From Hyphomicrobiales bacterium (GTDB lineage Bacteria; Pseudomonadota; Alphaproteobacteria; Rhizobiales; Beijerinckiaceae), in contig JAQGKD010000120.1 of the NCBI GenBank assembly GCA_028290285.1, positions 1 to 64,000 of the forward strand: a stretch of DNA of 64,000 bases, read 5' to 3'. The notes under the pieces were generated by a model. It saw only the letters and a list, made by a program, of their open reading frames with translations. It did no database searches and was not told the DNA's origin. The translations under genes were made by a program, and so were the position numbers. Positions 37,397 to 39,234 of the stretch are shown piece by piece; the first letter of the stretch is position 1, and each line of letters begins with the position of its first letter.

Positions 37397-38035
37397 CTAA
37401 TGCGCATGTGCTCTGACCAATGCGACGCCGATCATGGCATCGCGTGAAATCAAGTCCGCAAGGCCAGCCTCGTTGAGTCCTTCCGTCCCCTCGGGCCGCC
37501 GAGGCACGACTAGAAAACGCATATCCGCAGTGGAATCATGGACGCGCACTTCTGTCTCGTCGGAGAGCTGCGTCCCAAACTCAGCAAGCACGGCGCGGGG
37601 CTCGTGCACGATCCGCGCGCGATAGGCGCGACTCTTGTACCAACTCGGTGGCAGTCCAAGCAGCTCGCGCGGATAACACGAGCACAACGTGCAGACGACG
37701 ACGTTATGGACATCATCGGTATTTTCGACGGCGACGAGACGCGTCGTCGTCATGGGATAGCCGAGTTCGGCCACGGCGGCATTTGCATCGGCCAGCAGGC
37801 GCGCGCGATAGGCTGGATCGGTCCACGCCTTGGCGACCACAGCCGCGCCATGCGCAGGCGTGATCTGATCTCGTTTCTCGATTGCCGACCTCACCTCGTC
37901 GGCGGTCACGACGCCCTTTTCGACCAGCAACTCTTTCAGGGCGATCCCGAGGATCTGGTAATAGCTGTGCACCTTGTCGTCGGGCTGGGGCGCTGGATGA
38001 GCGGCGTGATCATGGTCGTGATGATCGTGCGGCAT
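37397..38035 (-). CDS. Cobalt-type nitrile hydratase alpha subunit / thiocyanate hydrolase gamma-like
   Basis: Metal-binding subunit of the nitrile hydratase superfamily, 212 residues. The claw motif VCTLCSC (Cys115, Cys118, Cys120) has Thr at the second position, the form found in cobalt (non-corrin) enzymes rather than the CSLC of iron enzymes; YPRELLGLPPSWYKSRAYRARIVHEPR follows in family order. The N-terminus is unusually rich in His and Asp (MPHDHHDHDHAAH), a likely metal-binding tail. It is the third gene of a tight three-gene operon, after two genes that together equal one beta subunit. Reaction, nitrile to amide or thiocyanate hydrolysis, cannot be decided from sequence. AGGA precedes the ATG. 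Confidence 0.9.
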   Translation of the reverse strand: MPHDHHDHDHAAHPAPQPDDKVHSYYQILGIALKELLVEKGVVTADEVRSAIEKRDQITPAHGAAVVAKAWTDPAYRARLLADANAAVAELGYPMTTTRLVAVENTDDVHNVVVCTLCSCYPRELLGLPPSWYKSRAYRARIVHEPRAVLAEFGTQLSDETEVRVHDSTADMRFLVVPRRPEGTEGLNEAGLADLISRDAMIGVALVRAHAH

Positions 38036-38044
38036 GACGGGTCC

Positions 38045-38338
38045 TCAAATCTTTTCGAGCCAGTTTTGGTAGAGATCGAGATCGACGCAATCGCGTTTCG
38101 ATCCGGCATAGTCGTCCCAGAGATCGCATTGCAGAAAACGGACCTCATAAAGATCCTCCGCCTGCCCTGACAGGCGGTAGGCGAGCAGCTCCGGATTTCC
38201 GAATGCGCCAAAATAGCGCGTCACGCGTCCGATCTTGCCACGAACATAGACCGGCGTTCGCACATGGCCGGGCGGATAGTCGTCTCGCACCCGAACCATA
38301 TCGCCGGGCATGAATGATGCCGTTTGCGTCCCGCTCAT
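38045..38338 (-). CDS. Nitrile hydratase beta subunit, C-terminal half (SH3-like), separate gene
   Basis: 97-residue protein equal to the C-terminal SH3-like domain of nitrile hydratase beta. The match runs FMPGDMVRVR, PPGHVRTPVYVRGKIGRV, YEVRFLQCDLWDD and DLDLYQNWLE. The Arg in GHVR aligns with the beta-subunit arginine that contacts the oxidised cysteines of the metal site. Its ATG overlaps the stop of the preceding gene (ATGA), and the alpha gene starts 9 nt after it. In thiocyanate hydrolase the alpha subunit (ScnA) has this same origin. It is not a pseudogene fragment: start, coupling and length look designed. Confidence 0.86.
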   Translation of the reverse strand: MSGTQTASFMPGDMVRVRDDYPPGHVRTPVYVRGKIGRVTRYFGAFGNPELLAYRLSGQAEDLYEVRFLQCDLWDDYAGSKRDCVDLDLYQNWLEKI

Positions 38339-38676
38339 GGTTTCACCACCTCGGTGCCAGGCGCAAGCTCACCGGTGGCGGCGAGGCGTTCACGAATTTC
38401 ACGCACGCGCGCATCGATCTCGGCCTGTGTAAGGAGCCCCTTCTCCACCATCTGGCGGGACAGCGCCGCGGTCCAGCGCTCGTAATAGGTCAGTGTCTGA
38501 TGGGCATCGTCGCCGAGAGCCTCGATATAGCGCCGGTTCTCGTGCGTCGTGACGATGCCTTTGGCGCCGATGACCGCGCGGATGCCGTCGATCTGCTTTT
38601 CCCAGAAGCCGAGTTCGTGCGTCTCGGGATCGATTGGTCCGTCGTCCAATCCTCCCACGTCATGTGGTCCTCGCAT
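38335..38676 (-). CDS. Nitrile hydratase beta subunit, N-terminal half, separate gene
   Basis: 113-residue protein equal to the N-terminal helical half of nitrile hydratase beta: MRGPHDVGGLDDGPI at the start, then WEKQIDGI (residues 25-32), HENRRYIEALG and YYERW, followed by VEKGLLTQAEID. Arg48 or Arg49 aligns with the second beta arginine near the metal centre. In thiocyanate hydrolase this piece is ScnB; some databases label it a nitrile hydratase accessory protein. It is the first gene of the operon, with a strong AGGAGG ribosome site, and is translationally coupled to the next gene. No activator (P14K-like), amidase or cobalt-uptake gene lies nearby. Confidence 0.84.
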   Translation of the reverse strand: MRGPHDVGGLDDGPIDPETHELGFWEKQIDGIRAVIGAKGIVTTHENRRYIEALGDDAHQTLTYYERWTAALSRQMVEKGLLTQAEIDARVREIRERLAATGELAPGTEVVKP

Positions 38677-38835
38677 CCATGCTCCTCCTGGACGTTGAAG
38701 CGGTCATTGTGGCATGTGGCGCGGCTGACGCAACCGCCTGACGGGTCAGACGTTGATGATAATCTTGCCGGGGAAATCTGCGCTTTTGCTCAGAACTCGA
38801 CCCTTGCAATTGATTACGCGCGACCTGGAGGTAAA

Positions 38836-39234
38836 ATGCGTAAGATTCTCATGAGTGGGCTCGCACTCTCGGCTCTCGGAATGTCCAGCATCGAACCCGC
38901 CACGGCGCAGGCCATGCGTATCGATCACAATGTCGGCGGGCTCGCAAAGGCCCAATCGTCGGTAACGGACGTGCAATATCGCCGGTACGGGGGATACCGT
39001 CGGGATCGTGGGTATAATAACGGCGCTGCCATCGGAGCTGGAATCGCCGGACTCGCGGCGGGAGCCATAGTTGGGGGAGCCATCGCAAACTCTCAGCAGC
39101 CGACCTATTACGAAGGCGGCCCTGCTCCTGTCGCGGACGACGAGGTCTCCTACTGCATGCAGCAGTTTCGCTCCTACGATCCGCGCAGCGGCACTTACAT
39201 GGGCTATGACGGAATGCGTCACGCCTGTCCTTGA
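38836..39234 (+). CDS. BA14K family secreted protein
   Basis: 132-residue exported protein. It has a signal peptide (MRKILMSGLALSALGM, cleavage near PATAQA), a Tyr/Arg/Gly-rich middle (YRRYGGYRRDRGYN), a glycine/alanine hydrophobic segment (about residues 70-88) and the C-terminal BA14K signature YCMQQFRSYDPRSGTYMGYDG with RHACP. The Brucella founder is an immunoreactive, lectin-like protein needed for normal lipopolysaccharide. GGAGG precedes the ATG. It is divergent from the hydratase operon across a 159-nt gap. Confidence 0.9.
   Translation: MRKILMSGLALSALGMSSIEPATAQAMRIDHNVGGLAKAQSSVTDVQYRRYGGYRRDRGYNNGAAIGAGIAGLAAGAIVGGAIANSQQPTYYEGGPAPVADDEVSYCMQQFRSYDPRSGTYMGYDGMRHACP

Follow-up and report, generated by a model that had tools for sequence, protein, structure and literature searches.

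An intact split-beta, cobalt-type nitrile hydratase operon with a pocket arginine and no recognisable activator gene in a Hyphomicrobiales genome

We examined a window of 64,000 nucleotides from a Hyphomicrobiales genome (contig JAQGKD010000120.1) and found that it carries an operon that probably encodes a three-subunit, self-maturing cobalt nitrile hydratase (NHase) of the AnhD-AnhE-AnhA kind, known from the Streptomyces enzyme ScNHase. The beta subunit is divided between two genes, here called beta-N and beta-C; the alpha subunit has a cobalt-type claw followed by the motif arginine Arg123, and the assembly contains no recognisable activator gene. By analogy with ScNHase, the subunits would form an (alpha beta-N beta-C)2 complex, in which the beta halves jointly act as a classical beta subunit and provide two arginines that hold the oxidised cysteines of the claw, while CTLCSC of alpha would bind Co(III). 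In the predicted reaction, a small polar nitrile is hydrated to the amide, in a pocket where Arg123 would take the place of the usual Trp. Maturation would proceed without a separate activator, beta-N probably doubling as a metal chaperone that swaps subunits, the role reported for AnhD.

Results

Operon structure

All three open reading frames are intact (Table 1). The beta-N and beta-C genes overlap by 4 nt (ATGA) in different frames, and a gap of 9 nt separates beta-C from alpha. A sequence-only reading had already described three tight minus-strand genes with this overlap and gap, and both the coordinates and the Pfam families agree with it. The Pfam scores of all three subunits lie far above cut-off and are thus not due to chance. 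The alpha subunit also passes TIGR01323, the alpha equivalog of the classical two-subunit cobalt NHase (262.8 bits; cut-off 249.85).

Table 1. Features of the split-beta nitrile hydratase operon in the window
Feature	Position	Strand	Description or evidence
Alpha subunit	37397..38035	-	212 aa, 23.3 kDa; NHase alpha with cobalt-type claw; Pfam NHase_alpha 268.8 bits
Beta C-half subunit (beta-C)	38045..38338	-	97 aa, 11.2 kDa; Pfam NHase_beta_C 77.2 bits, profile 7-98 of 98
Beta N-half subunit (beta-N)	38335..38676	-	113 aa, 12.6 kDa; Pfam NHase_beta_N 77.7 bits, profile 1-101 of 115
AGGAGG, ribosome-binding-like, 5' of beta-N	38684..38689	-	read from sequence
Metal claw CTLCSC, alpha residues 115-120	37676..37693	-	sequence; invariant in 17/17 aligned genus alphas
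Alpha Arg123 (CSCYP-R), equivalent of the ScnC Arg	37667..37669	-	72/72 Arg-type vs 0/38 fused rows, the rows being grouped by this very residue; the phylum sample is the independent test
Alpha His/Asp-rich N-terminus HDHHDHDHAAH, not type-specific	37997..38029	-	alignment
Beta-N Arg48, conserved beta arginine	38533..38535	-	66/66 Arg-type, 36/36 fused rows
Beta-N Arg67 (YYERW), common to ScnB	38476..38478	-	65/66 Arg-type, 6/36 fused rows; ScnB has Arg

The earlier reading had also noted that the CTLCSC claw and both beta arginines are kept. These residues are indeed present, and the arginines are invariant in the aligned rows: Arg27 of beta-C occurs in 67/67 Arg-type and 37/37 fused rows, and Arg48 and Glu52 of beta-N are invariant in Arg-type and fused groups alike. 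We take the two arginines (beta-N Arg48 and beta-C Arg27) to act near the metal. Compared with the nearest row of the alpha tree (L041), dN/dS was about 0.11 for beta-N, 0.10 for beta-C, and 0.14 for alpha, and values against L039 and L034 ranged from 0.06 to 0.31, one not being computable; all are rough, as dS was mostly above 1 and synonymous sites were near saturation.

Association of the pocket arginine with a split beta subunit

We sampled 398 genomes of the phylum, located alpha subunits in 58 of them with TIGR03887, and took all 61 loci with their flanks. Nine of the 61 alphas, that of the window included, read CSCYP-Arg (Arg-type), and all nine loci have a split beta in the order beta-N, beta-C, alpha. 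The other 52 alphas have Trp, Phe, or His (two are Fe-type), and 51 of these are accompanied by a fused beta, the enzymes with a fused beta having Trp, Phe, or His after CSCYP in place of Arg. The sole split locus among the 52 (G339) is Trp-type and re-split as alpha, beta-N, beta-C, with an activator. The window lacks the classical combination of a one-piece beta and an adjacent activator.

Two variants were seen outside this sample. Plasmid pUSP2 of Aminobacter sp. MSH1 (L185) carries a Trp-type enzyme with an independently split beta, in the order alpha, beta-N, beta-C, activator, and an amidase gene adjoins. In the relatives set, L266 is a split-type alpha with Lys replacing Arg.

Relationship to thiocyanate hydrolase

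The sequence-only reading had compared the operon with thiocyanate hydrolase, whose subunits or genes are written alpha-beta-gamma or scnABC in two papers. The lengths it gave for ScnB, ScnA, and ScnC (157, 126, and 243 aa) are those of the PDB chains. We consider it unlikely that the operon encodes such an enzyme, converting thiocyanate to carbonyl sulfide and ammonia with the anion bound by Arg123, although several observations favor this possibility. ScnC reads CTLCSCYPR and so carries the identical CSCYP-Arg, and PDB entry 3vyg is its Arg-to-Trp mutant, with Trp at that position in the alignment. In a search with 31 residues, 3vyg scored 4.2 bits below ScnC, and 3vyh, a classical cobalt NHase alpha, scored 4.2 bits above the similar chains 1ugp and 1ire. 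An equal gain and loss would be expected of reciprocal swaps; these score differences suggest that 3vyh may be the reverse swap of 3vyg, made in a classical NHase. In addition, the best PDB match of beta-N is ScnB, and Arg-type beta-N rows have in common with ScnB Arg49 (58/66) and Arg97 (62/66) as well as Arg67. Other Arg-type-specific positions, among them His166 and Asp171 of alpha, differ from ScnC.

Other features of the alpha subunit and the pocket argue against this assignment. The window alpha does not reach the cut-off of the ScnC (gamma) family (TIGR03887, 201.8 vs 291.45 bits), nor does any of the 398 phylum genomes. ScnC aligns over 216 residues compared with 205 in the window alpha, so extra residues of ScnC are missing from the window. 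Two pocket arginines, ScnB Arg90 and ScnC (gamma) Arg136, reportedly set thiocyanate selectivity in thiocyanate hydrolase. At the ScnB Arg90 position, 40 of the 66 Arg-type rows have Leu, 15 Asn, three Lys, and one Arg, and the window has Asn47. With Arg123 present and Asn47 at the other position, one of these two arginines is kept. The source genome also has no recognisable activator, and the ten neighbors scanned include no sulfur or thiocyanate genes, unlike the Scn loci described in PMC5328954.

An unrooted tree of alpha and beta together (58 rows, 386 columns, with the Arg/Trp column left out) separated 36 split Arg-type rows, L051 included, from 21 classical rows (19 fused and two re-split) with support of 100/99.9. 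The alpha subunit does not group with the classical two-subunit enzymes, a comparison that the earlier reading had proposed as a check. ScnABC fell on the split side, on a very long branch beside plasmid loci of Streptomyces, Rhizobium, and Polymorphobacter (97/93). Constraining it to join the classical rows was 10.4 log-likelihood units worse and was not rejected (AU p = 0.124), so this placement lacks significance. With alpha alone, placing ScnC with the fused group even beat the likelihood of the quick search (AU p = 0.885). Of the proposed comparison with ScnC, the part based on alpha alone did not place it, and the part that includes beta put it on the split side at the significance given above. 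The family cut-off, the ScnB Arg90 position, and the neighbors do not support membership of the operon in thiocyanate hydrolase; thiocyanate may stand a fair chance of being a substrate.

Gene neighborhood and substrate

The ten neighbors scanned encode ClpB, a methylmalonyl-CoA-mutase-type protein with a B12 domain, a zinc-binding dehydrogenase, an acyl-CoA dehydrogenase, and MOSC, PrmC-like, Hsp90, BrkB, BA14K, and DUF4167 proteins, and no nitrile or thiocyanate pathway was recognised among them. On the opposite, plus strand, a small BA14K-like gene (38842-39234) lies close upstream. No conserved partner gene was found next to operons of the window type. A single amidase query matched neither the window nor the best 80 of at least 592 named loci, and CbtA/CbtB occurred in one of those 80 (L130); this neighbor search used few query proteins per family, so distant members would escape it. 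The surroundings of the operon varied among relatives. In Rhodobacteraceae, its neighbors resemble, by eye, core genes of the chromosome. The genus has several sites, at one of which a short-chain dehydrogenase, parts of a molybdenum hydroxylase, a glutathione S-transferase (GST), a dienelactone hydrolase, and ABC genes recur, and a neighborhood of ccr, operon, and clpB was seen in one relative only (L041 and L052 being the same contig).

The four plasmid relatives checked all lie near CbtAB or HoxN; an aquaporin is also present at three of them, and DUF302 at three. On plasmids L182, L183, and L188, the aquaporin gene is directly 3' of the split NHase genes and is followed by cobalt transporter genes, with DUF302 in two of the three. 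The Planktothrix locus has no CbtAB, HoxN, aquaporin, or DUF302 within 4 kb. Cobalt transporters and an aquaporin beside the plasmid relatives fit the use of cobalt and a small neutral solute. This gene context and the example of ScNHase lean toward organic nitriles as the probable substrate class of the three-subunit hydratase.

Activator genes and maturation

In the phylum sample of 398 genomes, a TIGR03889 match lay within 5 kb of alpha at none of the nine Arg-type loci, compared with 49 of the 52 others (Fisher p = 1.3e-8, a value that serves only as a guide since the rows are related). The three exceptions among the 52 are the two Fe-types and G366, in which the activator occupies a different contig. 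G217 and G096, both Arg-type genomes, do have an activator, in each case beside their own classical copy, and the pattern holds in all seven genomes of the sample with an Arg-type enzyme only, the source genome included. The same was seen within the genus, where TIGR03889 exceeded its cut-off in three of 49 genomes, exactly the three with a fused-beta copy; weak matches below cut-off in G028 and G029 were both on beta-N itself. Among the best 80 of at least 592 named loci, activator matches were likewise found only on beta-N itself (five loci), and no match was found in G050, G051, G052, G057, or G078, which belong to other families and have a split-type locus only. An NHase_beta_N search of 18 chosen genomes returned, over cut-off, only the operon's beta-N in the 13 Arg-only genomes and more than that in the five with a classical copy. 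Together, these results indicate that Arg-type enzymes have no activator gene visible to TIGR03889 or NHase_beta_N. In the source genome, which contains one NHase alpha, there was no TIGR03889 match and the sole NHase_beta_N match over cut-off was the operon's own; as this genome consists of 145 contigs and is 93.85% complete (7.08% contaminated), an activator could be absent from the assembly.

Activators resemble beta N-termini, and beta-N of the window scores 20.9 bits with TIGR03889 (cut-off 46). Both facts would suit a reading in which beta-N is only an activator and the enzyme consists of alpha and beta-C, or of alpha alone, which we regard as quite improbable. Beta-N scores far higher with the structural beta model (63.5 bits), and it keeps Arg48 and Glu52, which are invariant in both groups. 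PMC7329996 speaks on both sides: it describes AnhD as a metal and subunit-swapping chaperone and cites ToyJ alpha as active and self-maturing by itself, but it reports zero activity for AnhA alone and about 4% for AnhEA. This favors a three-subunit hydratase in which beta-N may serve both as subunit and as chaperone.

A His-rich alpha tail was also considered as a substitute for the activator and was rejected: it does not set the Arg-type apart, since classical alphas are likewise rich in His. Five or more His precede the alpha core in 57/71 Arg-type and 24/42 other rows (means of 7.2 vs 5.3), the His-richness of the N-terminus being somewhat stronger in the Arg-type.

Distribution of the split beta subunit

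An NHase alpha was found in 33 of 49 genomes of the genus (one fragment, G016 contig 189, was not included in this survey), and all 33 have a CSCYP-Arg alpha. Separate beta halves lie within the fetched stretch in 28; in four, alpha lies at the end of a contig or close to it, with one or both halves out of view, and in G001 the halves are 4 kb away from alpha. Between them and alpha in G001 (L032 6714-11850) are solute-binding, [2Fe-2S], and molybdenum-hydroxylase-like large-subunit genes, all on one strand by eye. Three genomes (G003, G013, and G020) carry an additional classical alpha with a fused beta and Trp at the pocket position.

Named genomes yielded at least 592 confirmed relatives, of which the best 80 were kept, a choice biased toward the window type. 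Among the 79 used (L117 was dropped because it has the same record name as L116), a search for the halves recovered beta-C at 76 loci and beta-N at 74, and the beta halves were never fused together. The hosts of these best 80 are Rhodobacteraceae (for example Jannaschia, Yoonia, and Roseobacter CCS2), further Alphaproteobacteria, Beta- and Gammaproteobacteria MAGs, and a single deltaproteobacterial MAG. Plasmid records of Streptomyces, Planktothrix, Rhizobiaceae, and Polymorphobacter also have the split type. The gene order there is beta-N, beta-C, alpha, except in L183 and L186, which have beta-C, alpha, beta-N. Overlaps and gaps between the split genes vary from locus to locus.

Orthologous split operons occur elsewhere in the genus as well as across Alpha-, Beta-, and Gammaproteobacteria; together with the consistent split of the Arg-type phylum loci, they indicate that the split is not a sequencing frameshift. 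It is extremely improbable that the operon is a relic with a frameshift-broken beta gene or an inactive locus: the 4-nt overlap in different frames and the existence of a claw-less relative (L051) could be read in this way, but the same split at all nine Arg-type phylum loci, the beta halves and differing overlaps and gaps among the best 80 of at least 592 named loci, the intact claw, and a (rough) dN/dS of around 0.1 in the comparison with the nearest row largely refute it.

Some loci depart from the common arrangement. L051 (G078 contig 3, about 72422-72958) has a split beta-N, beta-C, and alpha in which the claw reads SSLGAS instead of CTLCSC with YPR kept; its alpha is likely a clawless pseudo-enzyme or a protein with a new function. 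Beta-N and alpha form single-protein fusions in L049 and L050 (G080) and in L270 (G051). L050 has a His/acidic linker, a lone beta-C lies on a different contig of G080, and in L270 a separate beta-C gene comes after the fusion. L114 and L122 are not fusions of this kind, their similar appearance coming from a weak match and a contig edge. L059 (2005-3221) has two tandem beta-N genes followed by beta-C and alpha. A phage or virus origin was rejected: tblastn matched none of 50,697 phage records, and viral_contigs yielded no relative that was confirmed.

Discussion

The Streptomyces precedent for this design is known; the present analysis adds its wide distribution, the missing helper gene, and the pocket Arg common to thiocyanate hydrolase. 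We found no open-licence paper describing the proteobacterial group or the link between the Arg and the split. In plasmid records, the three genes appear as "nitrile hydratase subunit alpha" and two "SH3-like domain-containing" proteins, so a common enzyme type is hidden. Recognising it opens to comparison many natural nitrile hydratases that lack an activator gene, and Arg/Lys versus Trp offers a testable residue parting two pockets.

Guo et al. are said to have noted a resemblance between ScNHase and eukaryotic NHase. Eukaryotic NHases are beta-alpha fusions, with a His-rich stretch between the two parts in opisthokonts (PMC2603476 and PMC3323583). Marron et al. state that the beta of Roseobacter CCS2, among the top Monosiga matches, "appeared truncated"; in our data the beta of this organism (L077) is split in two. 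We tentatively propose, with the odds somewhat against it, that the split-beta, Arg/Lys-pocket, activator-free enzymes are one deep branch of the superfamily apart from the classical cobalt and iron enzymes, that thiocyanate hydrolase is its specialised twig, and that the eukaryotic beta-His-alpha fusions derive from it. If so, the subunit inversion assumed by Foerstner et al. would no longer be needed, and the "truncated" beta of Marron et al. would be one half of the split beta of L077. The operon offers a bacterial arrangement with the same order as the eukaryotic enzymes.

Comparison with known systems

The classical two-subunit cobalt NHase has in common with the window the family, the claw, and the beta arginines, and it differs in its fused beta, its Trp, Phe, or His in place of Arg, and its adjoining activator gene. 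The eukaryotic beta-His-alpha enzymes resemble the operon in that beta precedes alpha (PMC3323583 and PMC2603476) and differ in being one fused protein, as compared from their descriptions.

ScnABC (PDB 2dd4) is similar in its split beta, CSCYP-Arg, His-rich N-terminus, and several beta-N arginines. It differs in its long divergent branch, its extra alpha residues, and Arg at ScnB position 90, and also in its thiocyanate gene neighborhood (PMC5328954) and its activator P15K, the latter known from a title in a reference list.

The toyocamycin hydratase ToyJKL is the other described three-subunit NHase besides ScNHase. Its three subunits of about 21, 10, and 11 kDa (PMC8574189 and PMC12648386) are like those of the window, and it differs in serving an antibiotic cluster, as compared by description. 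The sequence-only reading had likened the operon to ScnABC and ToyJKL and proposed a compact hydratase of cobalt type with three subunits. This agrees with the present results; the split is widely distributed, and alpha is separate from the classical enzymes.

The closest described enzyme, which that reading missed, is the ScNHase of Streptomyces canus CGMCC 13662. PMC7329996 gives the gene order anhD (beta-N), anhE (beta-C), anhA (alpha), a genome without an activator gene, a D2E2A2 complex, and subunits of 10.41, 11.35, and 21.33 kDa; the enzyme hydrates acetamiprid, thiacloprid, and BN (presumably benzonitrile), and indole-3-acetonitrile was not converted. ScNHase differs in being actinobacterial, and the likeness is set by its description. 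It extends to the order of beta-N, beta-C, and alpha, the lack of an activator gene, the subunit sizes, and the use of cobalt (PMC7329996). The window enzyme matches ScNHase in its subunits and their order, likewise has no recognisable activator, and would be of a kind already known.
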